NCBI RefSeq assembly: GCF_015356755.1
Contig: NZ_JADFCO010000066.1
Span: forward strand, 248,001 to 312,000
Direction of reading: 5' to 3'
Length of the DNA stretch: 64,000 nucleotides
Source of the DNA: Nonlabens antarcticus
Lineage (GTDB): Bacteria; Bacteroidota; Bacteroidia; Flavobacteriales; Flavobacteriaceae
The position numbers and the translations under genes are program-made. Under the pieces are notes generated by a model, which worked only from the letters and a program-made list of their open reading frames with translations, did no database searches and was not told where the DNA came from. Each line of letters begins with the position of its first letter. The stretch's first letter is position 1. Below are positions 1,927-55,406 of the stretch, piece after piece.

Positions 1927-2947
1927 AGGAGACAATAAATCTCGCAAGGTGCTGGTGGAAAAAAATGTGAGCCAGCATCGCGTTCTTATTCCCGTTTACA
2001 TTCCCCACGAGAAAGATTATTACAAAGATGCTTTTGAGATTTTTAAACTTTGTCTGCAAAGTATAAAAAGAGAATCTGTCTCGGTAACACCCATAACCGT
2101 TGTCGCAAATGGTTGCAGCCAAGAAATTCATGACAAGCTTTTACAGTTTATACCACAAGGTCTCATCGATGAGCTTTTTATAGAAACGAAGCAACTGGGA
2201 AAGATCAATAGCCTGCGCAAGGCAATCAAGGCAAGTGAGGAAACCTATTTAACGATAAGCGATGGTGACGTTCTTTTTTTAAATGGTTGGGATAGTGAAG
2301 TAGCTAGAGTCTTTACCGCTTTCCCTCATGCTACCGCTGTTGCGCCCGTGCCTATTCATAAAACATTCAATCAATATGTTTCTAATATTTGGTTTGATCA
2401 TATGTTTTCCGGTAAACTTGCTTTCGCGAAAGCGGAAAACCCGGCCGCATTGGAAAAATTTGTGCAAAGTATAGGCTGGCCTTATCTTGAGGACCACTAA
2501 AAACTGGAACTGTTAAGCCTTAAAGCTAAAAATGGAACAATAGCCGTAGTAGGTTGCAGTCATTTTTGCACGACCTATCGCAGGGAAGTGTTTAAGTTTG
2601 CACCTGGGGAACCGACTCAATTTGCCTTAAGTGGTGATAGTGAGAAAAAGTATTTAGATCTACCGACTATACGGGCAAATGGTTACCGTCTTTCTACAGC
2701 TGGAAATTATGCCTACCATTTGGGTAATGTTCTGGAACCTTGGATGAAACAAGCGTTTGATGAAGTAAAGCAAAGAGATGAAGTTATTGTACAATGGCCT
2801 CAGAAAAGGCGACTTGACAAATCCAAGTTTGGATATTTTATTAAAAACAGATTTTTTAAAAAATTATTGAGTAATCCTTATATCTACAATATGGCCCTGC
2901 GCAAATTTGGCTTGAGGAAGGAATGGGAGAAATATTATTTTAAATGA
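1919..2947 (+). pseudogene. Glycosyltransferase gene interrupted by one in-frame stop
   Basis: Reading from ATG 1919 gives 193 residues of a GT2-like protein: VLIPVYIPHEKDYY at the N-terminus, and SDGDVLFLNGWD as the DxD-type site. TAA at 2498-2500 then stops it, just after YLEDH. The same frame stays open beyond the stop (KLELLSLKAKNGTIAVVG, then CSHFCTTYRREVFKFAPGE) to TGA 2945-2947. That is about 341 residues of one protein with no shift, so a single nonsense change or base error explains the break. A copy of the cluster's palindrome encodes AFAKAE at about residue 168. The last codon overlaps the next gene as ATGA. Either the gene is inactivated, the stop is a sequencing error, or two peptides are made. 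Confidence 0.75.
2420..2433. repeat. Palindrome GCTTTCGCGAAAGC
   Basis: Perfect core CTTTCGCGAAAG with one flanking pair. It lies inside the interrupted glycosyltransferase, read as AFAKA. Confidence 0.9.
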
Positions 2948-3852
2948 ATAGGATCCTTATATTCTCATCACTTTGTAAATCCAAGGATATCCTGGAACTT
3001 ACCATACCTTCATGGATAGGAATGGAGAAAGGAAATCTTGATGTAGAAATATTGCTTTACAATGACAATAGGGATGCAGATGCTTTTGCATACGTAGATT
3101 CTTTGCCTGAAAAGCATTCTTCCATAACTGTTGTTGATGGCTGGTTTAATGAAGAGTCAACGTATAAGAATCACAATTGGACATTAGACCAAGTAGACCG
3201 CATTATCCATATCAAAAATCGGGTTTTAGAATTAGCACAAGAAAATAAATATGATGCCGTTTTTTTGATTGATGCAGATCTAGTACTTCATCCAAAAACG
3301 CTGCTTCATTTAGAAAGCTTAAAAAAAGATTTTGTCTTTGAGATATTTTGGACTGTTTTTACCGATCAACTGTTTGCGAAGCCTAACTGCTGGGATGTTC
3401 ATTCATGGAGTTACCATAACGCACAGAGTATACTGAGACTCAAGGAAGCCGGCACCTATCAAATAGGCGCTGGTGGTGCGTGTACCTTATTGTCTAGCAA
3501 TGCAATCAATGCAGGCGTTAACTTTGAAAAAATAAACAATTTATCATATGGCGGTGAGGATCGACATATTTGTACCCGGGCGGAGGTGCTAGGTTTCCCG
3601 ATATTTGTAGATACTTTTTTTCCTGCATTTCACATTTTTGAGAAAAACCTACTCAAAAATGCCAAAGATTGGATATCATTAGAGTATTCACGAGAATATT
3701 TTGACTCTTGGCTGGATCAATCGTGGGAAGACCGTGTTATTCAAACACATCAAAAAGAAGTGCCGTCTAAGCCAAAAAATGAATTTGATAGGATAAGAAA
3801 GGCTCTGTACAAGGCTAAAAGAGCATACATTAACTATATGCGCTATAATTAG
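2944..3852 (+). CDS. Putative glycosyltransferase (GT-A-like)
   Basis: 302 residues starting at ATG 2944, which overlaps the preceding stop as ATGA. The N-terminus (RILIFSSLCKSKDILELTIPSW) is followed by EILLYNDNRD and then by DAVFLIDADLVLHPKTL. The last has the DxD metal and nucleotide-sugar site of GT-A enzymes. GAGGACTLL and YGGEDRHICTRAEVLG resemble the acceptor-side (G/E)ED motif of GT2-type proteins. No membrane segment is evident, so it is probably cytoplasmic or peripheral. Donor and acceptor are unknown. It belongs to the rightward polysaccharide cluster. Confidence 0.75.
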   Translation: MNRILIFSSLCKSKDILELTIPSWIGMEKGNLDVEILLYNDNRDADAFAYVDSLPEKHSSITVVDGWFNEESTYKNHNWTLDQVDRIIHIKNRVLELAQENKYDAVFLIDADLVLHPKTLLHLESLKKDFVFEIFWTVFTDQLFAKPNCWDVHSWSYHNAQSILRLKEAGTYQIGAGGACTLLSSNAINAGVNFEKINNLSYGGEDRHICTRAEVLGFPIFVDTFFPAFHIFEKNLLKNAKDWISLEYSREYFDSWLDQSWEDRVIQTHQKEVPSKPKNEFDRIRKALYKAKRAYINYMRYN

Positions 3853-3871
3853 TGATAAATCAGGTTCATAA

Positions 3872-5137
3872 ATGCCACAATTAAAAATCCTCATTATAGC
3901 AGACACGCTAGACGAACAAGCCAGTAGTGGTGGTAAAGCTAGTATGGCATTAGTTAAAGGATTTGTGGAACAAGGTTATAAAATTAAAGTGTACCACTAC
4001 TCTAGAAAAGAGCTCGAAATTGAGGGGATACAATTAATTTCAATATGCGAAAAAAGAAGTACTCTATCTTACATTAAAGCGAAAAGCCAATTACTCTTTC
4101 AACGATGGACGGGAAAAAATATCAATTCATGGATAGAGTGTAGAAAAGGATTTTCTTACACTCATGATTATGATGTAGAAAGTATCAAATATGCGGTTAA
4201 TCAAGAGTCGCCTGAAAATTACGATTACATATTGACTCTTAGTTATGCGAGTAGTTTTAGGGCACACAAGGCCATTCTACAAATTCCTCACTGGCATAAA
4301 AAACTGTTGTCATATGTCCACGACCCCTATCCTATGCACAGTTATCCACGACCCTACGACTGGGTAGAGCCTGGACATCAATTTAAGCGGGATTTTTTTA
4401 TTGATCTATTTGAAAAGTCTGCGCACATACTCTATCCCAGTAAATTACTGGCGGCATGGATGGAAAGTTATTACCCCACGGGAAAGGGAAAGTCAGTGGT
4501 ATTGCCCCATTTGATGATTGATGGTTTGAAAAACACGGGTGATTATCCACAGTACTACCATCCAGATAATTTTAACCTGCTTCATGCGGGATCACTCATG
4601 AGCGCTAGAAACCCAATGGGGGTAGTTGAAGCCTTCACTTTGTTTTTAAAGGAAAACCCCACCGCATTACAGGAGGCAAACCTTGTTATTGTAGGTGGAG
4701 CGTCGGTTTTTCATACAGAGCTGGAAGGTATTGCTAACGAATTACCCCAATTGACTCTAAGTCCAGGAAAGGAAGATTTTCAACGTACTTATAATATGCA
4801 GCAACAGGCAGCGGTCAATATCGTACTAGAAGCGAAAGGACCGACCAGCCCATTTTTACCGGGTAAAGTGTCGCATTGTATCGCTGCAGATAAACCTATA
4901 CTATTATTGGGGCCCTATTACAGCGAGACGCGCCGGCTTTTAGGCAATGACTATCTTTACTGGGCAGAAATTGATGACGTTGAAAAAATTAAAAACTATA
5001 TTTTATGTCTTTATAATGACTGGAAAAAGGATAGGACAACAGCTGTTTTAAATCGACCAGATTTAATGGAGTACTTTAGCAGCAGGAGCATTTGTAAAGT
5101 TTTCGAACATATAAAATCAGAGCAAATCAACGATTAA
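3872..5137 (+). CDS. GT4-like glycosyltransferase
   Basis: 421 residues with a GT-B architecture. The N-terminal half begins LKILIIADTLDEQASSGGKASMALVKGF, the glycine-rich donor/acceptor loop of GT4 enzymes. The C-terminal half begins at FNLLHAGSLMSARNPMGVVEAF and contains LVIVGG. The usual GT4 E-x7-E signature is poorly conserved near EAKGPTSPFLPGKVSHCIAADKPIL, so this is a divergent member. It would transfer a sugar to the polysaccharide precursor at the inner face of the membrane. It is preceded by a 19-nt gap and followed by wecB. Confidence 0.75.
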   Translation: MPQLKILIIADTLDEQASSGGKASMALVKGFVEQGYKIKVYHYSRKELEIEGIQLISICEKRSTLSYIKAKSQLLFQRWTGKNINSWIECRKGFSYTHDYDVESIKYAVNQESPENYDYILTLSYASSFRAHKAILQIPHWHKKLLSYVHDPYPMHSYPRPYDWVEPGHQFKRDFFIDLFEKSAHILYPSKLLAAWMESYYPTGKGKSVVLPHLMIDGLKNTGDYPQYYHPDNFNLLHAGSLMSARNPMGVVEAFTLFLKENPTALQEANLVIVGGASVFHTELEGIANELPQLTLSPGKEDFQRTYNMQQQAAVNIVLEAKGPTSPFLPGKVSHCIAADKPILLLGPYYSETRRLLGNDYLYWAEIDDVEKIKNYILCLYNDWKKDRTTAVLNRPDLMEYFSSRSICKVFEHIKSEQIND

Positions 5138-5150
5138 TTATCCCGTTTTT

Positions 5151-6269
5151 ATGAAGAAGATCTTAATGGTAATAGGTACTAGGCCAGAAGCAATTAAAAT
5201 GGCACCTGTAATTAGAGAGATAGAATTACATCCAAAGGATTTTGAGCTGCATATTTGTGTGACTGGGCAACATCGCTCCATGCTAGACCAAGTACTGTTT
5301 TTTTTTCAAATAAATCCACATACGGATTTAGATCTCATGGAACCAAATCAGTCTCTCGCATCGCTTACGGCTAAGCTAATGACAGGTTTGTCAAACATTG
5401 TAAAAGAGTTTGCACCAGACATTGTTATGGTGCATGGTGATACAACAACTGCCATGGTCGCATCATTGGCAGCTTTTTATGAACAGAAAAAAATAATGCA
5501 TATAGAAGCTGGCTTGCGAACTCATACTATAGAGTCACCATTTCCTGAAGAGGCAAACCGTCAAATTATTTCAAGACTAGCTAGTTGGCATATGACGCCT
5601 ACGAGTTTAGCGCAACTTGCATTACTTAAGGAAGGAGTGAAACCAGAAATGATACGGGTGACTGGAAATACGGTCATAGATTCCCTTAATCTTGGTTTAA
5701 AGATTATTGAAGACTCGGGAAGTTTGAAATTATTGCAATTCAAAAAGCAAATAAGTAGCGGTAGAGTTATTCTGGTAACAAGCCACCGTCGGGAAAATCA
5801 GGGACAGGGAATTATTGAGATTTGTCAGGCACTTAAAGCAATTGCTTTACAAAATCCTGATATTCAAATCGTGTTCCCGGTACATCTTAATCCCAAAATA
5901 ATAGATACTGTTAAGGATCAATTAAAAGGAATTCGGAATATTTTACTTATTGAGCCATTGGATTACGAGCGTTTTTTATGGTTAATGCAGCATAGTTATT
6001 TAATAATTACGGATAGTGGTGGGATACAAGAAGAGGCACCATCCTTAAATAAGCCAGTTTTAGTTATGAGGGAAGAAACGGAACGACAGGAAGCTGTCGA
6101 CTGCGGTGCCGTTATTCTTGTGGCTAATAAGAAAGAGAGAATCGTCAATGAAACCCAACGGTTGCTGGATGATGATGAGTTATATCAACGCATGGCTGGC
6201 GCGACAAATCCATATGGCAATGGAACGGCAGCAAGGCAAATAATTGATAGTCTTAAAAAGATAGTATAA
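5151..6269 (+). CDS. wecB: UDP-N-acetylglucosamine 2-epimerase (non-hydrolysing)
   Basis: The enzyme interconverts UDP-GlcNAc and UDP-ManNAc in the cytoplasm, supplying ManNAc-type sugars for surface polysaccharide. At 372 residues it has normal length. The family signatures appear in order: IGTRPEAIKMAPV at the N-terminus, VMVHGDTTTAM, IEAGLRT, FPEEANRQIISRLA, VTGNTVIDSL, TSHRRENQGQG, ITDSGGIQEEAPSL and VMREETERQE. The sialic-acid-type genes neuA and neuB lie 5.3-7.5 kb downstream, so ManNAc supply for sialic acid synthesis is plausible. That route normally needs a hydrolysing epimerase, and the motifs here fit the WecB type better. Confidence 0.93.
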   Translation: MKKILMVIGTRPEAIKMAPVIREIELHPKDFELHICVTGQHRSMLDQVLFFFQINPHTDLDLMEPNQSLASLTAKLMTGLSNIVKEFAPDIVMVHGDTTTAMVASLAAFYEQKKIMHIEAGLRTHTIESPFPEEANRQIISRLASWHMTPTSLAQLALLKEGVKPEMIRVTGNTVIDSLNLGLKIIEDSGSLKLLQFKKQISSGRVILVTSHRRENQGQGIIEICQALKAIALQNPDIQIVFPVHLNPKIIDTVKDQLKGIRNILLIEPLDYERFLWLMQHSYLIITDSGGIQEEAPSLNKPVLVMREETERQEAVDCGAVILVANKKERIVNETQRLLDDDELYQRMAGATNPYGNGTAARQIIDSLKKIV

Positions 6270-6282
6270 ACAAAAAATTATT

Positions 6283-7221
6283 ATGATTTCTATTATCATT
6301 CCTGTTTATGATAGGGCTACTTTAATCTTAGAGACCTTGAAATCTATATCTGCTCAAACTTATACTAATTGGGAGTGTATTATAATTGATGATCAGAGTG
6401 CAGATGATACTGTGAAAGTTATAACTAACTTTATAAAACTTGATAAGAGATTTAAAATCTATCTTGGAAAAAAAAAGGGGGCAAGTGCATGTAGAAATTA
6501 CGGAATCAGTAAATCATCAGGAAATTTTATTCAGTTTTTCGATAGCGATGATATCATGCATCCAAAACATTTAGAATTAAAGATTTCAGTTATTGAAGAT
6601 TTTGACTTTACAATTTGTAAAATTCGAGGTTTTCGAAATGATTTTTGCGAAGATTATTTTGAAAAAGATATCGTAAAAGATGTTGATTACCCAAAGGATT
6701 CATTTAAGTCATTTGCAATCGGAAGTTTTCATATGTGTATGGTACTCCCATTATGGCGTAGTTCTTTTTTAAAGCAATTTTTACCCATAAGAGAGGATTT
6801 AAACGTTTTGGAAGATCGAGAGCTTCACGCAAGAATATTATATACAAATCCCAAGTTTAAGATTATAAATAGAACTTTAATTTACTACAGAAGGGATTGT
6901 ATTTCTATCACAAATAATTTTTTTAAGGATATTGATTATGGTCTTGAGGCCTTTTTAAATGCATTGAAAACAGTTCTTTCATTACGCAGCGATGACGAAA
7001 TAAGACTTGGTATTCTTAAAAAAACATTAGGCTTTTTTAGACAAGCCCTAGTGGAGGGTAATTTCAGCGCAGCGAGTAGATGTCTGAAATTTACAACCCA
7101 ACAAAAATTATGGTATTCCAATACTCTAAAGTTAAAGTTAATAAGGATATTATTTTTTTTTAGAGTTTTAAAAATCCTAAAAAGAGGTGAAACACGTTTT
7201 AAGTTTTTATTCAAAATTTGA
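6283..7221 (+). CDS. GT2 family glycosyltransferase
   Basis: 312 residues. The N-terminal GT-A domain is clear: ISIIIPVYDRATLILETLKSI, then the WECIIIDDQSADDT nucleotide-binding segment, GASACRNYGISKSSG, and the QFFDSDDIMHPKHLE metal site (DSDD). The C-terminal third is basic and hydrophobic (LIRILFFFRVLKILKR) and may rest on the membrane. It sits 13 nt after wecB. The gene is noticeably richer in A+T than wecB or neuA. The specific sugar is unknown. Confidence 0.88.
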   Translation: MISIIIPVYDRATLILETLKSISAQTYTNWECIIIDDQSADDTVKVITNFIKLDKRFKIYLGKKKGASACRNYGISKSSGNFIQFFDSDDIMHPKHLELKISVIEDFDFTICKIRGFRNDFCEDYFEKDIVKDVDYPKDSFKSFAIGSFHMCMVLPLWRSSFLKQFLPIREDLNVLEDRELHARILYTNPKFKIINRTLIYYRRDCISITNNFFKDIDYGLEAFLNALKTVLSLRSDDEIRLGILKKTLGFFRQALVEGNFSAASRCLKFTTQQKLWYSNTLKLKLIRILFFFRVLKILKRGETRFKFLFKI

Positions 7222-7245
7222 AGTTGAATAATAATTAATCATTAT

Positions 7246-8331: not shown

Positions 8332-8378
8332 AACTTAGAGGGGAATATTTCGATGTAGTTAACATTAACAAAAAATGA

Positions 8379-11573: not shown

Positions 11574-11617
11574 ACAAGCACGTAACTTTCCCTAAATTTG
11601 CTTGCAACCCAACCATT

Positions 11618-13649: not shown

Positions 13650-13710
13650 GAGTTCAGAATTTTTAGACCTTGGCAAAAACAATGAGATAGCAAAACTTAA
13701 GCTGAACTCG

Positions 13711-13763: not shown

Positions 13764-13879
13764 ACCATGCAAGAATCAAAACTTAATTTGACACTCCAAG
13801 AAAGTTGGAATCTTTGATTTTTTTTAACCAGAACTTAAATTAAAAACATCAAACAAGCAGAAATTGGAAAACCCCATTT

Positions 13880-14136: not shown

Positions 14137-15555
14137 TTGGACAACACCGATTCAAATCCTAAAATATTTATCCTTTTCCCTGACGGCGTGGGCCTGCGCA
14201 ATTTTGCGTTCACTAATTTTAAGGAAATAGGGGAGCAGCAAGGCTTTGACATCACCTATTGGAACAATACCATCTTCCCTTTGCAAGAAGAGCTGGGATA
14301 TCCGGAATTAAAGATCAGCAGTACCAAAATTCACCCTAAAACCACCATGCTCAGTCATGCAAGAAAAAGGGTAGAACTAGCGCTTTCGCGAAAGCGGACT
14401 AACGACAAAGTTTACAGCACCTATCGATTTCCGTTGCAATGGACGGGCATTAAGAAAGCCGTAAAAAGCGGTTTTGTCAAATACCATGAAGTATTTCGTG
14501 CCACACCACAAGGTTGGCAACGACTGATGGATCAAATGGCAACGGCCGAGCGATCCACAACACGGTTTAAAGAACTCAAAAAGCAGTTGGAAGTTCACAG
14601 GCCAGATCTGGTTTTTTGTACGACCCAGCGCGCAACCCAAGCCATCGCGCCCATACTGGCAGCACAGGATTTAAGCATTAAAACTGCTTGCTGGATCTAC
14701 AGTTGGGACAATTTACCCAAGGGAATGACCACCATAGAAACAGATTATTATTTTGTCTGGTCAAACCTGATGAAGGAGCAGCTGCTGGAATATTACCCTA
14801 AAACCAATCCGGAACAGGTATTTGTGACTGGCACTCCACAATTTGAACCTCATTATGATAAGGGGCTTTTGCTTTCGCGAAAGCGATATTGTGAAGAACA
14901 CCACTTAAATCCAGAAACTCGATATATCTGTTTTTCTGGTGACGATGCCACCACCTCGCCCTTGGATCAATACTATCTGGAAGATACCGCAGTTGCAGTC
15001 AGGAAATTGAGGGAACAGGGCAGGGATGTGGCTATTATCTATAGAAAGGTACCTGTTGATTTTACGGGACGCTACGATGCTGTTTTGGAAGAATATAAAG
15101 ATGTCATCACGCCCATTGCTCCTTTATGGAAGCCTATGGGAGAGCAATGGAACCAGGTAATGCCGACCAGGGAAGATTTTGCGCTGCTTGTTAATACCTG
15201 CCATCATTGTGATCTGGTCGTGAACATTTGCTCCAGCATGGTGTTTGATTTTGCGATACACGGGAAACCCACGATCTATCCCAACTATGAACAGCCACAA
15301 TTGGAAAAAGGCATTCGCGACATAGGACAAAATTATAAGTACGTACATTTCCGCTCCATGCCAGATGTTGATAAAAGTGTTATTTGGGCCAGTAGCAAGA
15401 GTGAGATTTACGATGGTATCAAGGGAATTCTGGATGGCAATTTGAATCCAGTTCCAGTGACAAAAAAATGGTACGGGATCGTCAATAAACCAGAACAACC
15501 AGAGAAAGCGAGTGAGCGTATTTGGGAAGGGGTCGGGAAAATATTACATGCTTAG
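14137..15555 (+). CDS. Putative GT-B-like glycosyltransferase, TTG start
   Basis: 472 residues, family not firmly recognised. IFILFPDGVGLRNFAFTNF begins a Rossmann-like half, and DLVFCTTQRATQAIAPI, KTACWIYSWDNLPKGM, DYYFVWSNLMKEQLLEYYP and VFVTGTPQFEPHYD follow. The late VNICSSMVFDFAIHGKPTIYPNYEQP looks like the donor site of CDP-glycerol or UDP-sugar GT-B enzymes. TTG 14137 is the only usual start codon between the in-frame stop at 14110 and the fold. Two perfect palindromes lie in it, both read as LSRKR (residues 83-87 and 246-250). It directly abuts the MBOAT gene. Confidence 0.6.
   Translation: MDNTDSNPKIFILFPDGVGLRNFAFTNFKEIGEQQGFDITYWNNTIFPLQEELGYPELKISSTKIHPKTTMLSHARKRVELALSRKRTNDKVYSTYRFPLQWTGIKKAVKSGFVKYHEVFRATPQGWQRLMDQMATAERSTTRFKELKKQLEVHRPDLVFCTTQRATQAIAPILAAQDLSIKTACWIYSWDNLPKGMTTIETDYYFVWSNLMKEQLLEYYPKTNPEQVFVTGTPQFEPHYDKGLLLSRKRYCEEHHLNPETRYICFSGDDATTSPLDQYYLEDTAVAVRKLREQGRDVAIIYRKVPVDFTGRYDAVLEEYKDVITPIAPLWKPMGEQWNQVMPTREDFALLVNTCHHCDLVVNICSSMVFDFAIHGKPTIYPNYEQPQLEKGIRDIGQNYKYVHFRSMPDVDKSVIWASSKSEIYDGIKGILDGNLNPVPVTKKWYGIVNKPEQPEKASERIWEGVGKILHA
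14381..14396. repeat. Palindrome CGCTTTCGCGAAAGCG
   Basis: Perfect core with two flanking pairs, in the GT-B-like gene and read as LSRKR. Confidence 0.9.
14871..14884. repeat. Palindrome GCTTTCGCGAAAGC
   Basis: Second perfect copy in the same gene, 489 nt after the first and in the same reading frame (LSRKR). Confidence 0.9.
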
Positions 15556-27825: not shown

Positions 27826-28838
27826 AAACCCGCATTATTTACATAGGCAATAAATTAGCGATTCATGGTAAAACTGCCACTACCATTGATACGCTGGCAT
27901 ATTTATTAGAAAAAGATGGTGCTGTACTGCGCACGGCTTCCTCTAAAAAGAATCTTATTTTTAGATTGATGGACATGCTGTGGACGGTGCATAAAAACAG
28001 GAATTGGGCAGATCGCGTGTTGATAGACACCTACAGTACCCGCAACTTCTGGTATGCCGAATGGACGGCTCGATTATGTCGCATTTATAAGTTGGAATAC
28101 ATTCCTATCCTGCACGGCGGCAACCTTCCCCAGCGGTTGGAATCGCATCCTAAGGTGATTCGTAAATTTCTTGAAGCTAGCTATCAAGTGGTAAGTCCTA
28201 GTAATTATTTAAAGTCCGCTTTCGCGAAAGCGGGATATCACAACATCACGGTCATACCTAATTCCATTGCCTTAGAAAACTATACGTTCTTGCCACGCGA
28301 GCAATTAAAACCGAAACTTTTATGGGTGCGGTCCTTTGCCGATATCTACAATCCACAAATGGCAATAGAAGTGCTAGAATTGCTACTAAAGGAGTTTCCA
28401 GATGCCACTTTAATAATGGTAGGACCAGAAAAGGACGGCAGTTTACAACGCTGCAAAGAATTTGCAACCTCCAAAAAACTTAGTATCGAATTCACCGGTT
28501 TGCTTACTAAAGATGCATGGATCGAACAAAGTAAACGCTGCGATATTTTCATAAACACATCCCGATTTGACAATATGCCGGTGAGTGTTTTAGAGGCAAT
28601 GGCATTAGGATTACCTGTAGTATCAACCAATGTAGGCGGTATTGCCCACCTAATTCAAGATCAGGAAACTGGTCTCTTAGTTCCGGATGGCGACGCGGTT
28701 GCAATGCATACCGCTATAATAAAACTGTTATTAGATCCTGAATTTGCACATTTGCTATCCAACAATGGCCGTGATTACGTGGAAAAACTAGACTGGAATT
28801 ACATCAAAATTCAATGGCATAAACTATTAGGTAGATAA
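27822..28838 (+). CDS. GT4 family glycosyltransferase
   Basis: 338 residues starting at ATG 27822 (ATGA overlap). RIIYIGNKLAIHGKTATTID, YIPILHGGNLPQRLE and VVSPSNYLKSAFAKAGYHNI lie in the N-domain. KPKLLWVRSFADIYNPQMAIEVL and LIMVGPEKDG open the C-domain. FINTSRFDNMPVSVLEAMAL then GLPVVSTNVGG is the donor site. A full 18-bp palindrome encodes SAFAKAG in the inter-domain region, where many GT4 proteins have a helix. Confidence 0.9.
   Translation: MKTRIIYIGNKLAIHGKTATTIDTLAYLLEKDGAVLRTASSKKNLIFRLMDMLWTVHKNRNWADRVLIDTYSTRNFWYAEWTARLCRIYKLEYIPILHGGNLPQRLESHPKVIRKFLEASYQVVSPSNYLKSAFAKAGYHNITVIPNSIALENYTFLPREQLKPKLLWVRSFADIYNPQMAIEVLELLLKEFPDATLIMVGPEKDGSLQRCKEFATSKKLSIEFTGLLTKDAWIEQSKRCDIFINTSRFDNMPVSVLEAMALGLPVVSTNVGGIAHLIQDQETGLLVPDGDAVAMHTAIIKLLLDPEFAHLLSNNGRDYVEKLDWNYIKIQWHKLLGR
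28216..28233. repeat. Palindrome CCGCTTTCGCGAAAGCGG (18 bp)
   Basis: One of three copies with the full 18-bp symmetry. It is read as AFAKA. Confidence 0.92.
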
Positions 28839-31036: not shown

Positions 31037-32641
31037 CTAACCACGCTTCATCGTTCCACGCTTGAAAATCCCGAACAACAGAATGAATATTCCCATACCG
31101 CACGCAATTCTTGCTATGTAATCGCCGTGCTGGGTATAGAACGTAATCTCATCAGATAGGCCTATGGTTGCTTTAATGGAACCTTGCTTTTCATAATCCA
31201 ACTGATCCACGATCTTACCGGATGGATTAATAATCGCGCTGATCCCGGTATTGGCACTACGGGCGATCCAGCGTCGGGATTCAATGGCGCGTAATCTTGC
31301 GATGCTTAAATGTTGTTTGTGACCTTGCGTATCGCCCCACCACGCATCGTTCGTAATAATAGCGAGAAACTGTGCGCCATTTTTGACATAACCGCTCACA
31401 TAATCACCGTAAACGGACTCATAGCATATCACTGGAGCTACTTTGCTGCCTTGTTGCGACGTGAAAACTGCTCTGGTTTCTTGAGTGGTTTTAGTCGCCA
31501 CGGTACCGCCTAAATCGATCATGGCATCGCCTAGAATGGGTTGTAATACTCCTTTGTATGGAAAATTCTCAACACCTACCACGAGCTTGGATTTATGGTA
31601 TAATTCGGGAGCAGTATTTATTTTTAAGAATAAGGCGCTGTTGTAATCGTTATAATAAAAATCTCCTTTGGGGTAATAATTAGTTTGTCTTGTTGATTTG
31701 GATTGATCCCTGAAACTGTCCAACATGGAAATACCACCTAAGAAAGAAGTCTTGGGATGGGAAGCAATATAGGAAGCTAATCTATTCACGCTGGCATCGT
31801 AAGGAACGGAGTTAAGTTCAATGGATTTTGCTAAAACGGTTTCTGGAGCGATGACAAAATCCGTGTTGGGCGTAATTTTTTGGTTGGCAAGTTTTTCAAT
31901 CAGACCGACCAGACTATCGTTATCCAATTCATACTTTTCCTCATAAGGATCAATATTAGGCTGGAGGACAATGACTTCGGCTGTTTTTTCAAGAATCTCA
32001 TCACCTGGTTTCAGGAAAAGGGAAACAATAATGGGAAGTGCAATGCAGGTTAAGGAAATACGCACAAATTTGATGGCGATGACTTTATTGAATTTGATTC
32101 CGCTTTCGCGAAAGCGGGCTATCAATAAAAATAACGCACAATTGGAAACCCAGATCCACAGAGAGCCGCCGAAAGTTCCCGTGTATTCGTACCATTGAAT
32201 CCAGCTGGTGTATTCACTAAATCCATTGCCCAGATTGAGCCACGGCCAGGAGAAATCCCAGTGCAAGTGCAAATATTCAAAACCGATCCACAAGCAAACT
32301 AAAAAAGTCAATGCCGCGCCAGTAGTGGCACGCCGTGCAAATAAATGATAACACCAAAAAACCAGCGCCATCAATAAGGAGTTTACTAAAACGGCAAACC
32401 ACATCCCGAACGGAGTGGAGTAGTAGAGCCAGGAAGTCGTGGCCATATTCCAGATAAAAAATGTCAGATAGGCCGTTCCCAATACTTCCCAGCCACGAGC
32501 TTTGGGTATTCCATTTCTGATCCTACGCTCGGCAATCAATAGCGGTATAAAGGCTCCAAAAAGTAATAGTGGGATGCCGTAAGTGGGCCAGCCCAGCCAT
32601 AAAAGAAGGCCGGAAAGAATGGCTAGGATCATGTTTTTCAT
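31037..32641 (-). CDS. lnt: Apolipoprotein N-acyltransferase
   Basis: The inner-membrane enzyme that adds the third acyl chain to lipoproteins. 534 residues: an N-terminal group of membrane segments (from MKNMILAILSGLLLWLGWPTYG), a periplasmic nitrilase-like domain and a C-terminal membrane segment. The catalytic triad is recognisable: Glu in DFVIAPETVL, Lys in KSKLVVGVENFPYKG, Cys in APVICYESVYGDYV. IITNDAWWGDTQGHKQH follows. An 18-bp palindrome encodes RFRESG between the last early membrane segment and the catalytic domain. The start overlaps the stop of the HepT-like gene by 4 nt. Confidence 0.92.
   Translation of the reverse strand: MKNMILAILSGLLLWLGWPTYGIPLLLFGAFIPLLIAERRIRNGIPKARGWEVLGTAYLTFFIWNMATTSWLYYSTPFGMWFAVLVNSLLMALVFWCYHLFARRATTGAALTFLVCLWIGFEYLHLHWDFSWPWLNLGNGFSEYTSWIQWYEYTGTFGGSLWIWVSNCALFLLIARFRESGIKFNKVIAIKFVRISLTCIALPIIVSLFLKPGDEILEKTAEVIVLQPNIDPYEEKYELDNDSLVGLIEKLANQKITPNTDFVIAPETVLAKSIELNSVPYDASVNRLASYIASHPKTSFLGGISMLDSFRDQSKSTRQTNYYPKGDFYYNDYNSALFLKINTAPELYHKSKLVVGVENFPYKGVLQPILGDAMIDLGGTVATKTTQETRAVFTSQQGSKVAPVICYESVYGDYVSGYVKNGAQFLAIITNDAWWGDTQGHKQHLSIARLRAIESRRWIARSANTGISAIINPSGKIVDQLDYEKQGSIKATIGLSDEITFYTQHGDYIARIACGMGIFILLFGIFKRGTMKRG
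32100..32117. repeat. Palindrome CCGCTTTCGCGAAAGCGG (18 bp)
   Basis: Full 18-bp copy inside lnt. On the coding strand it is read as RFRES. Confidence 0.92.
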
Positions 32642-33091: not shown

Positions 33092-34168
33092 CTACCTACT
33101 AAAAACAGACAAATCAATATTCAACGAGAAAATATTAGAATAAAGTGCAGCGCTGGAATCACCTATATCTGTTAACGCATAATCGATGGCGATGCCTTTG
33201 TATTTAAATCCGATACCGATATTGGGCTGGAAGGTCACATTGTCGTTGCCATCCAGCTGTAGTTCGTTTTGAAAATTTCCAACGCCAGCGCGCACGAATA
33301 CTAGATTTGTATAGCCATATTCAAGCCCGATTGCTGGTGTGGCACTCACGGCACTGCTGGAAATGATATCGTTTGTCTGGATGAACCTCATGTTTAAATC
33401 AACTTCTGCCTTTAGGACATGGTCATAGTGGAAAATGAACTCGCGCGCCACGCCCAGTTGTAATTTAGGTAAGGTTATTTCTGTGGTTTCTGGAAGATCT
33501 TGGTTTTGGTTCGCCACAGCACCGCTGATGGTAGCGTATTCTTCCTCGTCGATGGACCAGGTGTTGTAGGTTGTTGTGATATCTCTTGCCATCAATCCCA
33601 GTTGCCAGCCGCCGCGTTTTAGCTGGATTCCTACATCAAACCCAAAACCGAATGAGCTGGCAAAATCTCCTATCACACGACGTATCACTTTTACATTTGC
33701 GCCATAAGAAAAGCCGTCAAGCTTGGATTCTCGCGCGTAAGAGGCGGTAAAAGCCCAGTCTGCTGTTGAAAAAGTGGAAATGCGATCGTAATTGATATTT
33801 CCCTGATCGTCGATTAATTGCGTGGTATTCAGAATATCATCTACAGAAAACCGGATGATAGAAAACCCAAATGCGCTGCGGTCATCGATAGGCATTGCAA
33901 ACGAGCCATAATTGTACTGGGCAATATCTGCAAAATAGCTGGCGTGCATTAGGGAAAGTTCTTTCTGCTCTAATTTCATCAAACCTGCAGGGTTCCAATA
34001 ACCAGAATTAGCATTACCAGTTCCTGCTACCACGGCATTGCCCATACCCAATGCTGCTGCATCGACCCCTATATTAAGAAATTCGTTAGAATAGGCTCTT
34101 GAGGTTTGCGCTTTCGCGAAAGCGGAACACATAAGAATCACATAAAAAATTGAAGTCCTCAAAGGCAT
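33092..34168 (-). CDS. PorV/PorQ-family outer-membrane protein
   Basis: 358 residues. A signal peptide, MPLRTSIFYVILMCSAFAKA, is cut before Gln21. The mature part starts with SNEFLNIGVDAAALGMGNAV, then SGYWNPAGLMKLEQKELSLM, the hallmark of PorV/PorQ-type barrels, and alternating beta-strands continue to the end (FSLNIDLSVF). Some relatives serve the type IX secretion system, but this member cannot be assigned to PorV or PorQ. The palindrome itself encodes the AFAKA end of the signal peptide. Confidence 0.85.
   Translation of the reverse strand: MPLRTSIFYVILMCSAFAKAQTSRAYSNEFLNIGVDAAALGMGNAVVAGTGNANSGYWNPAGLMKLEQKELSLMHASYFADIAQYNYGSFAMPIDDRSAFGFSIIRFSVDDILNTTQLIDDQGNINYDRISTFSTADWAFTASYARESKLDGFSYGANVKVIRRVIGDFASSFGFGFDVGIQLKRGGWQLGLMARDITTTYNTWSIDEEEYATISGAVANQNQDLPETTEITLPKLQLGVAREFIFHYDHVLKAEVDLNMRFIQTNDIISSSAVSATPAIGLEYGYTNLVFVRAGVGNFQNELQLDGNDNVTFQPNIGIGFKYKGIAIDYALTDIGDSSAALYSNIFSLNIDLSVFSR
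34109..34124. repeat. Palindrome CGCTTTCGCGAAAGCG
   Basis: Perfect copy forming the last residues (AFAKA) of the signal peptide of the PorV/PorQ-family protein. Confidence 0.9.
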
Positions 34169-37201: not shown

Positions 37202-37781
37202 TCTGAAAGAGATAGATTGGGAAGCAACCGTTGCCTTGAATGATTGGGGAAATGATGCCGTTGATCTGTTCTTTAACATTGTTACCCATAAATGGTACTC
37301 CATACCGTTCTATGTAATTTTACTGTTCTTTTTCTACAGGAAATTGGGCTGGAAAAATACCCTCATAAGCCTCGTTGCTATAGCGATCTTGATTGCTGCC
37401 AGTGACCAAATGGCTAATGTATTTAAACAGGGAATCGAACGATTAAGACCATTTAAAGAACCAGCACTGGAAGGAGTCATTTCAAAAGTGGGTCGCAGTG
37501 GTGGTACATTTGGCTTTTATAGTGCTCACGCGAGTAGCGCGATTGGCTTGGCAACATTTGTTATTCTAATGTTTTGGAAAAGCAATCGATGGTTGTGCGG
37601 CATCACGATTGCCTGGGCGGTACTCGTTGCCTATAGCCGCGTTTATCTAGGTTTACACTATCTGGGTGATATCTTGATGGGTGCTCTGATGGGAATTTTA
37701 TTAGGTTTTTTGTGCTATCGTTTGTTCGCTTTCGCGAAAGCGAAATACGGATCAAAATCTAACTTCAATCACAATGATTGA
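37194..37781 (+). CDS. PAP2-family phosphatase
   Basis: A membrane phosphatase of 195 residues with about five to six helices. The three PAP2 motifs are present: KQGIERLRPFKEP (K-x6-R-P), YSAHASSAIG (in place of PSGH) and SRVYLGLHYLGD (S-R-x5-H-x3-D). Likely substrates are undecaprenyl pyrophosphate or another lipid phosphate. The C-terminus ends FAFAKAKYGSK, where a palindrome copy encodes AFAKA. The stop overlaps the next gene by 8 nt. Confidence 0.88.
   Translation: MNDLKEIDWEATVALNDWGNDAVDLFFNIVTHKWYSIPFYVILLFFFYRKLGWKNTLISLVAIAILIAASDQMANVFKQGIERLRPFKEPALEGVISKVGRSGGTFGFYSAHASSAIGLATFVILMFWKSNRWLCGITIAWAVLVAYSRVYLGLHYLGDILMGALMGILLGFLCYRLFAFAKAKYGSKSNFNHND
37727..37742. repeat. Palindrome CGCTTTCGCGAAAGCG
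   Basis: Perfect copy in the 3' end of the PAP2 gene, read as AFAKA. Confidence 0.9.
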
Positions 37782-39643: not shown

Positions 39644-40684
39644 TTAATGACCCAATAATAATTCTGCAGCCTCAAAAGCAGTAATTCTCTTCTGTAGAAC
39701 TTGACTTTCAAGATCTTTGATGCGCTCTTCAATATTAGTTTGATTATAAAACTCTGACTTCAATCTATCTTCTATGGTTTGATGCAGCCAGAATAATTCT
39801 TGCTTATCTCTACGCTTTTTAAAATTCCCGTTCTCTATGGTTATTGCAATGAATTCTTTAAGTTTTTCACTCACCTCTTCAATCCCTTCGTTATTGAGTC
39901 CGCTGGCGGTGAGAACTTTTGTAGACCAATATTGATTTTTTTGCGGCATGAGATGTAGAGCGTTTTGAAATTCTCGCTTTGCATGTTTTGCTGCAGTTCT
40001 ATTTTCGCCATCTGCTTTGTTGATGACTATGAGGTCTGCCATTTCCATAATCCCGCGTTTGATACCTTGCAGATCATCACCGGCACCGGCTAGTTTGAGC
40101 AATAGGAAAAAGTCCGTCATGCTGTGGACTGCGGTTTCGCTTTGACCCACACCCACGGTCTCTATAATGATAAAGTCAAATCCCGCAGCCTCGCATAAAA
40201 TGATGGCTTCTCTCGTTTTTCTAGCCACACCGCCCAATGTTGTTCCAGCAGGACTGGGCCGTATAAAGGCCTGATCACTCTTCACTAGTTCTTCCATGCG
40301 CGTTTTGTCGCCCAGAATGCTACCGCGGGTGATGCTACTCGATGGGTCAATCGCCAAAACTGCTACCTTTTTACCTGAAGCTATTAATTGCTTGCCTAAA
40401 GATTCAATAAAAGTGGATTTTCCAACGCCTGGAACACCTGTGATTCCTAAACGAAAGGATTTTCCAGAGTGGGGAAGGGCCTTGCTCAAAATTCCTTTCG
40501 CGAAAGCGGAATCATTTACAGCGGTACTTTCTACTAATGTAATGGCCTTACTTAACGCGCTAATTTTCCCATCCTTTAAATCACTGTAAAGTGCTGAAAT
40601 GTGAACAGTGCTTTTCGTGCGTTTGAGAAAGGGATTAATGTGGGGAGAATCCAATGGCGGTTTATTAAGATCTAAAGATCGCAA
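39644..40684 (-). CDS. meaB: Methylmalonyl-CoA mutase-associated GTPase MeaB
   Basis: A GTPase that guards loading and repair of adenosylcobalamin in methylmalonyl-CoA mutase. 346 residues: P-loop GITGVPGVGKSTFIE (Lys89), VLAIDPSSSITRGSILGDKT, FIRPSPAGTTLGGVARKTRE, IIETVGVGQSE and INKADG (the guanine-binding motif). The mutase genes are not in the window, but an ATP:cobalamin adenosyltransferase is 5.4 kb away. A palindrome copy encodes AFAKG at residues 60-64. Confidence 0.93.
   Translation of the reverse strand: MRSLDLNKPPLDSPHINPFLKRTKSTVHISALYSDLKDGKISALSKAITLVESTAVNDSAFAKGILSKALPHSGKSFRLGITGVPGVGKSTFIESLGKQLIASGKKVAVLAIDPSSSITRGSILGDKTRMEELVKSDQAFIRPSPAGTTLGGVARKTREAIILCEAAGFDFIIIETVGVGQSETAVHSMTDFFLLLKLAGAGDDLQGIKRGIMEMADLIVINKADGENRTAAKHAKREFQNALHLMPQKNQYWSTKVLTASGLNNEGIEEVSEKLKEFIAITIENGNFKKRRDKQELFWLHQTIEDRLKSEFYNQTNIEERIKDLESQVLQKRITAFEAAELLLGH
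40495..40506. repeat. Palindrome core CTTTCGCGAAAG
   Basis: Perfect 12-bp core in meaB, read as AFAKG. The flanks are not symmetric. Confidence 0.88.
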
Positions 40685-42100: not shown

Positions 42101-42112
42101 GTATAATTATTA

Positions 42113-42128
42113 CGCTTTCGCGAAAGCG
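42113..42128. repeat. Palindrome CGCTTTCGCGAAAGCG (intergenic)
   Basis: Perfect copy between the secA stop and its terminator, within the secA transcript. It is one of only two intergenic copies. Confidence 0.9.
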
Positions 42129-47718: not shown

Positions 47719-47724
47719 TGCTGA

Positions 47725-48567: not shown

Positions 48568-49542
48568 CTAAACGATTCCTTCTCTAATAACATCATGAAT
48601 ATGCACGACACCATAATATGTACCACTTTCATCAACAGCAATCAATTGAGAAACGTGTAGTTCTTCCATGAGTTCGCGGGCTTGTATTGCCATAGAATCT
48701 GCAGTTATGGTTTTGGGATTGCTACTCATGATGTCTTTTGCGACCAGGCTATCAATGTCCTTGTAACTTGTGAGCATGCGTCTCAAATCTCCGTCGGTAA
48801 TGACGCCTAAGACTTTCTCACTTTCCACAACAACTGTCATTCCCAGCATATTTTCAGAGATATTCACGATCACTTCTCGCATAGAAGTTTCCAGGCCCAC
48901 TTGCGGTTTACTACGTTGCTGCGTTAAATCACCTACTCTTAAATATAATTTTTTACCTAAAGCACCGCCAGGATGATATCTAGCAAAATCTGCATCTGTA
49001 AATCCTTTAAGTTCGAGAAGGCTTATTGCAAGTGCATCACCTATGACTAATTGCACTGTGGTACTGGTAGTAGGAGCAAGGCCATTGGGACATGCTTCTT
49101 CTTGAATGGGAGCATGCAGCACAAAATTAGCTTCCGTTCCCAGAAAGGAATCCCGATTACTGGTGATGGCAATTAATTTATTACTGAAATTTTTTATGAG
49201 CGGCACCAGTACTTTGATTTCCGGTGTGTTTCCGCTTTTAGAAATGCAAACGACTACGTCATTTTCTTGAACGATTCCCAGATCTCCATGGATGGCATCT
49301 GCGGCGTGCATAAATATAGCTGGTGTGCCGGTTGAGTTCATCGTTGCTACGATTTTCTGTGCGATGATAGCACTTTTCCCTATCCCAGTAACGATGACTC
49401 TGCCTTGCGAATTGTGGATGTGTAGTACCGCTTTCGCGAAAGCGGAATCCACCACATTTTCCAGCTCCTTAACAGCATTTGCCTCAATACGGATGGTGCG
49501 TTTTGCGACTTCTAAAATCTTATCTGCGGTACTCAATGGCAT
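48568..49542 (-). CDS. kdsD: Arabinose-5-phosphate isomerase (KpsF/GutQ family)
   Basis: It converts ribulose 5-phosphate to arabinose 5-phosphate for KDO synthesis. 324 residues from ATG 49542. An SIS domain (RVIVTGIGKSAIIAQKIVAT, AADAIHGDLGIV, VVCISKSGNTPEI) is followed by two CBS domains (TVVVESEKVLGVITDGDLRR and VSQLIAVDESGTYYGVVHIH). The upstream in-frame start at 49629 would add 29 hydrophobic residues unlike the family and overlap recQ. An 18-bp palindrome encodes SAFAKAV near residue 33. Confidence 0.92.
   Translation of the reverse strand: MPLSTADKILEVAKRTIRIEANAVKELENVVDSAFAKAVLHIHNSQGRVIVTGIGKSAIIAQKIVATMNSTGTPAIFMHAADAIHGDLGIVQENDVVVCISKSGNTPEIKVLVPLIKNFSNKLIAITSNRDSFLGTEANFVLHAPIQEEACPNGLAPTTSTTVQLVIGDALAISLLELKGFTDADFARYHPGGALGKKLYLRVGDLTQQRSKPQVGLETSMREVIVNISENMLGMTVVVESEKVLGVITDGDLRRMLTSYKDIDSLVAKDIMSSNPKTITADSMAIQARELMEELHVSQLIAVDESGTYYGVVHIHDVIREGIV
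49428..49445. repeat. Palindrome CCGCTTTCGCGAAAGCGG (18 bp)
   Basis: Full 18-bp copy in the 5' part of kdsD, read as AFAKA on the coding strand. Confidence 0.92.
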
Positions 49543-49622
49543 TTCAAATTTTATGTATTTGTATAAAACGAATTTAATCGTAAATTGTAGCATACAAAGA
49601 TAAACAAAAAGAGAGCAGCCGT

Positions 49623-53837: not shown

Positions 53838-54437
53838 ATGAAACTTTCTGCCAGTTACTATCAGCACAACGACGTTGTTTTTCTTGCCAAAGACTTGATA
53901 GGTAAAACCATAATTTCCAGAGTAGATGATCAACTAACCAGCGGTATCATTACAGAAACTGAGGCATACCGCGGCGTGGATGATAAAGCATGCCATGCAC
54001 ACCTTGGAAAATTTACAGAGCGTACTAAGGTGATGTATGAACCTGGCGGTGTTGCCTATGTGTATTTATGCTATGGCATTCACAACCTTTTCAATATCAT
54101 CACAAACACAGACCAGCAGGCAGACGCGGTTCTCATACGAGCGGTAGAGCCCGTTGATGGCATCGACCTAATGCTGGAGCGTCGCGGTAAGTCAACACTA
54201 GAAAAGTCTTTGACTTCTGGACCCGGTAATTTCAGTAAGGCGTTTGCCTTAGACAGATCGCATTATGGGGAAGATCTTACGGGAGATTTAATATGGATTG
54301 AGGATGATGCAGAATTTCGCTTTCGCGAAAGCGAGATAACTGCCTGCAAAAGAATAGGAATCGACTATGCAGCGGAAGACAAAAACCTACCGTGGCGTTT
54401 CTATCTGAACACTTCTAAATATGTGAGCAAACGCTAA
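53838..54437 (+). CDS. DNA-3-methyladenine glycosylase (AAG/MPG type)
   Basis: It excises alkylated purines in base excision repair. 199 residues. MKLSASYYQHNDVVFLAKDL, then LIGKTI, ITETEAYRGVDDKACHAH (the catalytic Glu), KVMYEPGGVAYVYLCYGIHN and LTSGPGNFSKAFAL are diagnostic of the AAG family. A palindrome copy encodes FRFRES in the surface region before the last strands. It is transcribed away from the DEAD-box gene. Confidence 0.94.
   Translation: MKLSASYYQHNDVVFLAKDLIGKTIISRVDDQLTSGIITETEAYRGVDDKACHAHLGKFTERTKVMYEPGGVAYVYLCYGIHNLFNIITNTDQQADAVLIRAVEPVDGIDLMLERRGKSTLEKSLTSGPGNFSKAFALDRSHYGEDLTGDLIWIEDDAEFRFRESEITACKRIGIDYAAEDKNLPWRFYLNTSKYVSKR
54318..54333. repeat. Palindrome CGCTTTCGCGAAAGCG
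   Basis: Perfect copy in the alkyl-purine glycosylase gene, read as RFRES. Confidence 0.9.
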
Positions 54438-55245: not shown

Positions 55246-55328
55246 GGGTGTTGAATTAAAGTGTATTCCTAAATGTCGGAAATCTGGCCGGTTATCTGTG
55301 TAGCTTTCTGTCAAAATTCACATTTAAA

Positions 55329-55367
55329 TGACAGCTTGTCACTGGGAATGGTTTGGTACTTGATTTG
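55329..55367 (+). promoter_or_regulatory. Palindrome TGACAGCTTGTCA and sigma-54-like element before htpG
   Basis: TGACA-GCT-TGTCA (55329-55341) is a perfect inverted repeat. TGGTACTTGATTTG (55354-55367) follows 12 nt later and matches TGGYAC-N5-TTG, close to a -24/-12 type promoter (GA where GC is usual). It lies 74-112 nt before the htpG start. It could be a stress-response operator and promoter. Confidence 0.5.
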
Positions 55368-55390
55368 ACCATTGAGACTGAGGACGTTTC

Positions 55391-55406
55391 CGCTTTCGCG
55401 AAAGCG
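55391..55406. repeat. Palindrome CGCTTTCGCGAAAGCG (intergenic)
   Basis: Perfect copy in the leader of htpG, 34 nt before the start codon. Confidence 0.9.

Follow-up and report, generated by a model that had tools for sequence, protein, structure and literature searches.

The window, the whole 64-kb stretch of DNA analyzed here, carries twelve copies of the palindromic 12-mer CTTTCGCGAAAG, which are listed with their location and conservation in Table 1. All twelve coordinates reported by an earlier sequence-only reading were exact, and its expectation of about 0.004 copies agrees with the 0.0041 that a Markov model of order 2 gives for the window. The ten coding copies are read as it had claimed, as AFAKA or AFAKG (six), LSRKR (two) and RFRES (two), while those at 42115 and 55393 lie outside the listed open reading frames (ORFs). 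Its count of three copies reaching 18 bp was too low, as five copies form perfect palindromes of 18 bp or more (28219, 32103, 49431 and 54320 with 18 bp, 37729 with 20 bp).

Table 1. Copies of the 12-mer in the window, with the length of the perfect palindrome, the location, and the relatives in which the exact 12-mer is kept
Position	Palindrome (bp)	Reading and location (strand of ORF)	Kept in relatives
2421..2432	14	AFAKA, aa 168/193 of ORF 1919-2500 (+)	
14383..14394	16	LSRKR in ORF 14137-15555 (+)	2/3 aligned
14872..14883	14	LSRKR in ORF 14137-15555 (+)	2/3 aligned
28219..28230	18	AFAKA in glycosyltransferase ORF 27822-28838 (+)	5/7
32103..32114	18	RFRES between LNT_N and CN_hydrolase domains, ORF 31037-32641 (-)	3/7
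34111..34122	16	AFAKA at aa 16, near N-terminus, PorV-like ORF 33092-34168 (-)	7/7 aligned
37729..37740	20	AFAKA, C-terminus of PAP2 ORF 37194-37781 (+)	7/7 aligned
40495..40506	12 only	AFAKG in MeaB-like ORF 39644-40684 (-)	7/7 aligned
42115..42126	16	Outside listed ORFs; 16 bp past stop end of ORF 42143-45562 (putative secA)	
49431..49442	18	AFAKA directly ahead of SIS domain, ORF 48568-49629 (-)	5/5 aligned
54320..54331	18	RFRES in methylpurine-DNA glycosylase ORF 53838-54437 (+)	
55393..55404	16	Outside listed ORFs; 36 bp ahead of ORF 55441-57333 (putative htpG)	

The two LSRKR copies are 489 bp apart and form the third closest pair within 800 kb. The interval between 2.4 and 14.4 kb had been singled out as free of perfect copies; this gap is real but unremarkable, being among the 9 of 162 gaps in 800 kb that measure 11.9 kb or more. 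In the same 800 kb, 71 of the 163 copies lie outside ORFs of at least 90 aa, where 23 would be expected, and the coding sites are read as AFAKA (52), LSRK (22) or RFRES (18). The window is richer in coding copies than the 800-kb stretch.

Copy number, spacing and lineage distribution

The description of the motif as a highly iterated palindrome was borne out at the level of the genome: CTTTCGCGAAAG occurs 647 times in 3.27 Mb, far above the Markov expectation, while its reversed control has 0 copies genome-wide. In 100 dinucleotide shuffles of the window, the mean was 0.01 copies and the maximum 1. The 163 copies in 800 kb of the window's contig compare with 0.03–0.08 expected under Markov models of order 1 to 4, or 0.01–0.05 when the sites were masked before training; models of order 5 and 6 predict 3.5 and 48 copies, because they absorb the motif itself. 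Such a massive over-representation of one word throughout the genome, coding DNA included, is a hallmark of uptake-type signals. A literature search found no paper that names CTTTCGCGAAAG.

Spacing between the copies was more regular than random (coefficient of variation 0.65 vs 0.99), and none of 5000 simulations gave a value that low. For the first and second kb of distance, the pair correlation was 0.24 and 0.33, against about 1 beyond; sites avoid one another below about 2 kb. On the single complete chromosome sampled (G408), 21 pieces of 20 kb held 4–8 sites each (variance/mean 0.14), after exclusion of both end pieces, which hold a single site apiece; one of these pieces consists mostly of a single repetitive ORF of 5911 aa. 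The density along this chromosome was flat, with no trend between ori and ter. A ParB-type match near 300 aa was present in all 16 genomes tested, and the additional matches of about 600 aa in the own genome (G000, two matches), G399, G552 and G530 did not follow the motif in these 16 genomes. The partition or ori/ter role considered earlier is therefore unsupported by the flat density on the one chromosome and by the lack of an extra ParB tracking the motif.

In its own genus (nearest Nonlabens), the motif was found at 297–879 copies in 23 of 23 genomes, and in a second genus, probably Dokdonia, at 383–937 copies in 18 of 18. A third genus is represented by one genome with 445 copies (G592); the genomes G399 and G400 hold 759 and 656 copies, respectively. 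Beyond these three genera, the Bacteroidota sampled carry between 0 and 21 copies: no genome of a family sample of 397 exceeded 21 copies, and in a phylum sample of 395 genomes at most 11 copies were counted outside the own genus. The motif-rich state is limited to three genera in the sampled 395 and 397 genomes and comes in related dialects, as is typical of uptake-type signals; a sign of the latter is the A at position -9, with a frequency of 0.56 in Dokdonia loci vs 0.18–0.29 in the Nonlabens sets. Unlike what might be expected for a family-wide uptake system with dialects, four neighbouring motif-free genera (G552, G578, G118, G530) showed no other high-copy word of comparable abundance. 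A SecA tree of 15 rows gave no decision on a single clade for the motif-rich genera.

Two Nonlabens phages (70.7 kb) contained 0 copies, where about 14 would be expected. Among the matches listed for viral-contig stretches, at least 13 of 120 carry the motif two or three times. Searching plasmids with a single gene of the window was uninformative.

Make-up, conservation and origin of the sites

For the logos, 15 of 107 named loci were dropped for being neither Nonlabens nor Dokdonia. TTTCGCGAAA is invariant, at least one outer CGC arm is nearly always present, T is found at ±10/11, and on both sides of the site the 5' flanks are C-poor out to about 35 bp. Such a make-up makes the site a two-fold symmetric duplex signal. 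The scores of left and right flanks were not anticorrelated (r = 0.24 for 376 sites; r = 0.08, P 0.20, for the 256 sites with both arms); the earlier statement that symmetry precludes an oriented function of the palindrome is right descriptively, and no hidden orientation was seen in the flank scores. Helical phasing of the flanks at 10 bp, suspected initially, failed a permutation test, and part of the pattern at coding sites is the codon period.

Within the genus, 8 window sites were compared with 7 relatives, using a single ORF for each locus. The exact 12-mer was kept in 38 of the 46 comparisons, while a match of all four AFAKA-frame codons would be expected in 0.8–2.6% if amino acids alone were conserved. 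Five of the eight exceptions are inserts at the dyad: a 63-bp insert at 28219 in the two remaining relatives (G402, G395), and a split of the 32103 site in G404, G397 and G395, this site being altered in G400. One of the differences inside the genus comes down to a single substituted base. Within the genus, sites are held at the DNA level. In G397, two insert copies were observed in opposite orientations. REP-like patterns gave 6 of 15, a rate that is not free of bias, since some of the patterns derive from inserts observed beforehand.

The protein segments flanking the sites were poorly conserved between genera, and only 2 of 18 site positions were shared across genera, with one gene pair counted in both directions. 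Such scarce sharing fits drive, and simple turnover too. Where the site was absent, 12 of the 16 cross-genus alignments and 8 of the 10 with outgroups had no gap (again with one ORF per locus), and a gap near the site was found in the other 4 of 16 and 2 of 10. According to these alignments, most sites originate through substitution in variable segments of proteins, and the motif is not a mobile repeat; origin by substitution rather than insertion is also a feature of USS and DUS. The peptide RFRES was encoded by other codons in one homologue of 83% identity, so that the site occupies a peptide also found where the site is missing. This was the single instance of the observation named beforehand as speaking against the motif, conserved peptides with other codons, and it leaves the DNA-level signal standing.

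Split palindromes were counted in relatives and named loci against permuted arms. With CGCTTTC arms, 7 were found vs 0.28 (maximum 2), with GCTTTCG arms 2 vs 0.25 (maximum 2), and with 6-nt arms 14 vs 8.3 (maximum 45); in this set, an excess of split palindromes is present for CGCTTTC arms only. Over 800 kb of the window's contig, GCTTTCG arms gave 4 vs 0.25 (maximum 4), unfiltered for nearby intact sites, and the CGCTTTC-arm cases shown end in an intact site.

Candidate readers of the site

The palindrome had been proposed as a binding site for a nucleoid, partition or repair protein. A protein-binding role is the best reading, while a partition protein is unsupported. By analogy with known systems, we consider a self-DNA recognition signal of the uptake type the most likely function (probability roughly 45%). 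CTTTCGCGAAAG would form the conspicuous center of a two-fold symmetric site around TTTCGCGAAA that is recognized sequence-specifically as a duplex. Sites would originate mostly via substitution, after which selection or biased replacement would retain them at the level of the DNA itself. They may mark self DNA for a putative receptor of the natural-transformation or a similar DNA-exchange machinery; most several-kb fragments from a relative would carry one site and would therefore be preferred. Because the site is palindromic, a dimer or tetramer with matching symmetry would be expected as the putative receptor; the protein families searched yielded none. ComEC (PF03772) was found in all 16 genomes tested, and as these include all 8 motif-free ones, it fails to separate the two groups. 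The literature matches listed include no report on competence in either Nonlabens or Dokdonia.

To our knowledge, none of the known uptake sequences is palindromic, all known members having an asymmetric word, and the palindromic motif departs from USS and DUS in this respect. USS and DUS likewise occur in hundreds to thousands of copies of one 9–12 bp word, genic as well as intergenic, and are limited to certain lineages (PMC7811141, PMC2397512). As in USS, a core is accompanied by informative flanks (AT tracts in USS), and USS are reported to originate by point mutation (PMC7811141). DUS are conserved inside permissive regions (PMC2397512), which resembles the exact conservation in 38 of 46 comparisons amid variable segments. 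The differences lie in the perfect palindrome, the two-sided flanks, the Bacteroidota host and the distribution, which is called uneven for USS (PMC7811141) and is even with mutual exclusion here. In Riemerella columbina, placed in the Flavobacteriaceae by its authors, own DNA was preferred in transformation (PMC7965970).

The main rival, a possible but more doubtful explanation, is the binding site of a protein of chromosome architecture or topology (nucleoid-associated protein, anchor or topoisomerase loader) with one site per few kb chromosome-wide. Symmetry and flank length fit such a protein at least equally well; it is also favored by the exclusion below 2 kb, the flat density (variance/mean 0.14 in G408) and the lack of copies in the two phages, and the small dyad inserts of some relatives would fit cutting at the dyad. 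Noc, SlmA, MatP and parS sites are palindromic sites for dimeric proteins that number tens per chromosome and either favor or avoid the region of ori or ter. While the palindromic sites described here are similarly spread across a chromosome, they number several hundred and are flat along the one sampled, and no extra ParB family member follows them in 16 genomes. With 12–16 invariant bases at several hundred positions, they are also far stricter than nucleoid proteins require. The E. coli gyrase motif carries G+C phased at 10–11 bp in its flanks (PMC6379681); here no significant G+C period was found in the flanks (-65..-17, -50..-10), and a strong gyrase site was rejected on this ground.

A Chi-like hot spot of recombination or repair, bidirectional through being palindromic, appears improbable. 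Chi is 5–8 nt long, oriented and read as a single strand, occurs about once per 5 kb in E. coli and is lacking in some phages. One site per 4–5 kb, the even spacing and the absence from two phages would match, but the flank signal extends on both sides to about 35 bp, in contrast to the short, oriented word of Chi.

Still less probable is a HIP1-like element made and kept by a methyltransferase or by methyl-dependent repair. The earlier comparison with HIP1 stands as far as an iterated palindrome with a CG-rich center is concerned, but a C5 methyltransferase (PF00145) was absent from the own genome and from G400, G408 and G592, all motif-rich, among 8 genomes tested for the C5 type only. Moreover, 12–20 bp plus flanks exceed the length of a methyltransferase site, and mutation bias would leave the mutual exclusion at 2 kb unexplained. 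HIP1 and the alternate HIPs of cyanobacteria are also highly iterated and genus-wide, at 1000–2000 copies per Mb (PMC4390886), while the motif here is longer, rarer (about 200 per Mb), unlinked to a C5 methyltransferase, evenly spaced with exclusion, and provided with flank signal.

Mobilization by a RAYT-like transposase, also suggested earlier, or another inserted mobile repeat of REP type is very hard to uphold. The motif is palindromic and interspersed, the own genome has 3 Y1_Tnp (PF01797) matches, and gaps near the site accompany some absences (4/16 and 2/10). However, Y1_Tnp was found in only 5 of 8 motif-rich genomes, missing from G399, G400 and G592 despite their 759, 656 and 445 copies; most absences are ungapped (12/16 and 8/10), one within-genus difference is a single-base change, spacing is even and more than half of the sites are intragenic. 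A hairpin in RNA or DNA (terminator or processing signal) is equally implausible: a single strand of the 20-bp copy with its flanks can fold (-7.9 kcal/mol, z -1.85; 6 of 200 shuffles equally good), but 92 of 94 changed arm positions are uncompensated (2 paired), and intergenic density per kb is lowest between convergent genes (0.44, 10 sites; tandem 0.67, 45; divergent 0.74, 16). RAYT/REP, C5 methylation, an extra ParB, gyrase phasing, a hairpin or terminator and ori/ter bias were each tested, and none agreed with the data.

Returning to self-recognition, we regard it as about an even bet that Nonlabens, Dokdonia and the third genus share an undescribed palindromic, two-sided self-recognition site, set in an even chromosome-wide lattice and served by a putative symmetric receptor. 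Both families with a strong uptake preference for short words belong to the Proteobacteria. Such preferences are described for these two families only (PMC7811141). If true, the Bacteroidota would gain their first uptake-type signal, which would also be the first known to be palindromic, and a third, unrelated palindromic system in dozens of sequenced species would allow an independent test of drive, safe sex or structure as reasons for the evolution of such signals. If the site is read inside the cell instead, a regular lattice of sites organizing a bacterial chromosome would be described for the first time, and if a chromosome protein reads it, the organizing sites of this chromosome would be directly legible and evenly spaced, which is rare among bacteria. 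Under either reading, the site tags DNA of the motif-rich genera. Motif-bearing blocks at full density are present in other genera, and the site therefore also traces horizontal transfer. The host organisms are environmental, certain marine bacteria.

Abundance, anatomy and symmetry of the palindrome

The sequence-only reading had described 12 copies of a short perfect palindrome in the window, and all were recovered at their positions, with the coding copies in the frames assigned to them and the chance expectation of about 0.004 copies per window reproduced; five copies rather than three reach 18 bp. Genome-wide, the 12-mer was far above expectation. The window's genome (3,270,668 bases in 66 contigs) contained 647 copies, and none of the reversed word used as a control. 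An 800-kb stretch of the window's contig held 163 copies, while order-1 to order-4 Markov models predicted 0.03–0.08, or 0.01–0.05 when the sites were masked ahead of training. One-mismatch sites were scarce (34 vs 163 perfect; about 1 expected from permuted palindromes).

Among 177 TTTCGCGAAA sites in the 800 kb, the core was extended by CGC arms on both sides in 110, on one side in 64 and on neither in 3. As 92 of the 94 altered arm positions destroy pairing, the feature that is kept is the duplex sequence, not hairpin pairing; since sites were also not enriched between convergent genes in the 800 kb, a hairpin or terminator was rejected.

Flanking the core, each strand was short of C on its 5' side in two intervals (-11 to -26 and -30 to -35) and favoured T at -10/-11 and -20 (577 sites). 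The same pattern was seen at 147 sites between genes and, for 343 sites in coding sequence, on either side; it was common to Nonlabens and Dokdonia. Left and right flank scores were not anticorrelated (r = 0.24, 376 sites; only 0.08, P 0.20, in the 256 whose two arms were both intact), and in 111 one-armed sites both flanks exceeded random, the intact-arm side being slightly higher (P 0.08). Hidden orientation was therefore not seen, and the two-fold symmetry of the site spans about 50–70 bp, which upholds the earlier statement that it cannot act as an oriented signal. No helical periodicity of G+C was found in the flanks. In G592, a motif-rich genome of a third genus, and G608, from the second motif-rich genus (stretches L303–L308), several sites carried CGCTTTCGCGAAA on one side with the other arm degenerate and TA often preferred outside, which may point to a dialect in the flanks or to a less strict requirement for one arm only.

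Occurrence among genomes and turnover of sites

Of 395 genomes sampled across the phylum, none outside the window's genus had more than 11 copies, and all 23 genomes of that genus had 297–879. In a family sample (397 genomes) only the window's own genus, G592 (445 copies) and G608 (917) were motif-rich, the highest counts below them being 21, 19 and 19; 383–937 copies were found in all 18 genomes of G608's genus. A 16-mer scan of a named collection returned at least 107 stretches, and among the matches listed 92 were titled Nonlabens (including the related strain BBFL7) or Dokdonia. The closest blastn matches of the window's contig and of G408, a complete genome of the same genus, were Nonlabens loci. 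From the collection matches and the common flank preference we infer that G608's genus is probably Dokdonia. G552 and G727, whose genus ranks with the closest in SecA identity (76%), had 13 and 8 dispersed copies, which may be relics, an early acquisition or small transfers.

Codon alignments were made between the window's region and seven same-genus relatives (mean protein identity 69–79%, with a single ORF used at each locus). The exact 12-mer was retained in 38 of 46 comparisons (8 window sites); these share sites and species and cannot be counted as 46 separate events, yet the gap to codon turnover is still large: given identical amino acids, turnover would leave all four codons of the most frequent frame the same in 0.8–2.6%. 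Of the remaining eight comparisons, five had the dyad interrupted by a short insert and three were changed otherwise. A single-base difference within the genus separated G408, G402, G397 and G395 (GCTTCCGCGAAAGCG) from G400 (GCTTTCGCGAAAGCG).

Compared with other genera, the sites fall in variable segments. Between motif genera, 18 comparisons were covered (7 further ones were not): the site was absent without a gap in 12, absent with a nearby gap in 4, and in roughly the same place in 2, which are one gene pair counted both ways. In alignments to five genera that lack the motif, 8 of the 10 comparisons covered (6 sites) had no gap. The sequence-only reading had held that peptides conserved with other codons in distant homologues would speak against its view; one such case was found, an 83%-identical pair with RFRES in both and the DNA word in one genus only. 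This does not refute a signal at the DNA level, as it shows a site within a peptide that also occurs without the word. From the exact retention within the genus and the mostly ungapped absences, the motif is a signal in the DNA that arises mainly by substitution, is kept within a genus and is replaced between genera.

Layout on the chromosome and possible function

Neighbouring sites repel each other: their pair correlation was 0.24 at 0–1 kb, 0.33 at 1–2 kb and about 1 beyond, and the CV of the spacing was 0.65 (random placement, 0.99). In G408, each of 21 20-kb pieces held 4–8 sites (variance/mean 0.14, an evenness reached in 0 of 20,000 random draws), excluding two end pieces with one site each, one of them mostly a single repetitive ORF. 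This ORF, of 5911 aa and with repeats of about 108–123 bp among others, lies at the end of the G408 contig (L323, table); its G+C is 0.50, vs 0.35–0.41 in the other inner pieces, and the piece has one motif copy. Although ORFs of at least 90 aa make up 86% of the 800 kb, 44% of the sites lie outside them. When the 800 kb is ranked by the composition of 2-kb surroundings, the tenth richest in A+T holds only 4% of sites, and an A+T-rich 12-kb part of the window (2433–14382; G+C 0.31–0.39 over most) is motif-free. Such scarcity would follow if DNA acquired recently were free of sites. Two Nonlabens phages had 0 copies in 70.7 kb, where about 14 were expected at the host rate.

Symmetry, maintenance and spacing call for a symmetric sequence-specific DNA-binding assembly, and for a benefit or drive that levels off as soon as one site is present within a few kb; uptake or exchange of DNA fragments is such a process. 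We tentatively read the motif as a signal for this process (probability about 0.45); the estimate is kept at this level because the site is a palindrome and no receptor was found. Known uptake sequences share the high copy number and the presence in genes. USS are likewise reported to arise by substitution (PMC7811141), and DUS to be conserved in permissive regions, with a spacing that matches conversion fragments (PMC2397512). The uptake machinery is at least partly in place, with ComEC present in 16 of 16 genomes tested, but as these include the 8 motif-free ones, ComEC does not tell the two groups apart. Riemerella columbina, assigned to Flavobacteriaceae by its authors, is described as favouring its own DNA; the over-represented words they report seeking were of at most 10 bases, and they left the question open (PMC7965970).

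Binding by a chromosome-architecture protein is the main rival and somewhat less likely: it would account equally for the symmetry and the even layout, but gyrase-type phasing (compared using the motif of PMC6379681), an extra ParB tracking the motif (16 genomes) and an ori/ter trend in site density (sampled pieces of G408) were all missing. The last two also weaken the partition-protein site suggested earlier. The proposed likeness to HIP1 extends to being a highly iterated palindrome; HIPs are reported to be five to ten times denser (PMC4390886), and a C5 methyltransferase reading was rejected because none occurs in the window's genome, G400, G408 or G592. A RAYT-type repeat, likewise suggested, was rejected on the absence of Y1_Tnp from the motif-rich G399, G400 and G592. 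Among open-licence papers, the exact strings occur in 10, none of them concerned with the motif judging by title and abstract; nor did the motif appear among the matches listed on palindromes in Nonlabens, competence in Dokdonia or Nonlabens, over-represented repeats in Dokdonia, or palindromes in uptake sequences.

Motif blocks and inserts at the dyad

In low-count genera the copies were partly clustered, all 19 of G488 lying within 78 kb, and one pair of copies 933 bp apart recurred in several genera. The blocks are probably transfers from motif-bearing donors that retained the donor's tag. In the two blocks read, L320 and L321, the ORFs resemble, by eye, heavy-metal efflux gene clusters. 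An Aquimarina stretch (L041) matched one of L320–L322 at 99.98% over 8 kb.

Coordinates of motif blocks, dyad inserts and the repetitive contig end
Feature	Stretch	Position
Full-density block in genus otherwise without motif	L320	2267-17945
Full-density block in genus otherwise without motif	L321	3470-17931
Full-density block in genus otherwise without motif	L322	6986-17723
Full-density block in genus otherwise without motif	G488:C3	32332-110017
REP-like insert at/near dyad (G395, G402, G397)	L302	6850-6910
REP-like insert at/near dyad (G395, G402, G397)	L302	10320-10400
REP-like insert at/near dyad (G395, G402, G397)	L291	1880-1965
REP-like insert at/near dyad (G395, G402, G397)	L291	19350-19400
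REP-like insert at/near dyad (G395, G402, G397)	L299	10650-10720
REP-like insert at/near dyad (G395, G402, G397)	L300	13000-13060
Repetitive ORF, G408 contig end	L323	1410-19145

Some relatives carry a short insert at the dyad or at most 1–2 bases away. At the counterpart of the window's 28219 site, G402 and G395 have a 63-bp insert, and in G397 one element occupies two sites in opposite orientations. The inserts look like REP-like words, although the REP-like patterns used were partly picked after inserts had been seen. Split sites with arms CGCTTTC/GAAAGCG occurred 7 times in 1.09 Mb (0.28 with permuted arms) and those with arms GCTTTCG/CGAAAGC only twice (0.25), so numbers are small. REP-like inserts may enter preferentially at the palindrome, which would hint at occasional cutting or exposure of its centre.
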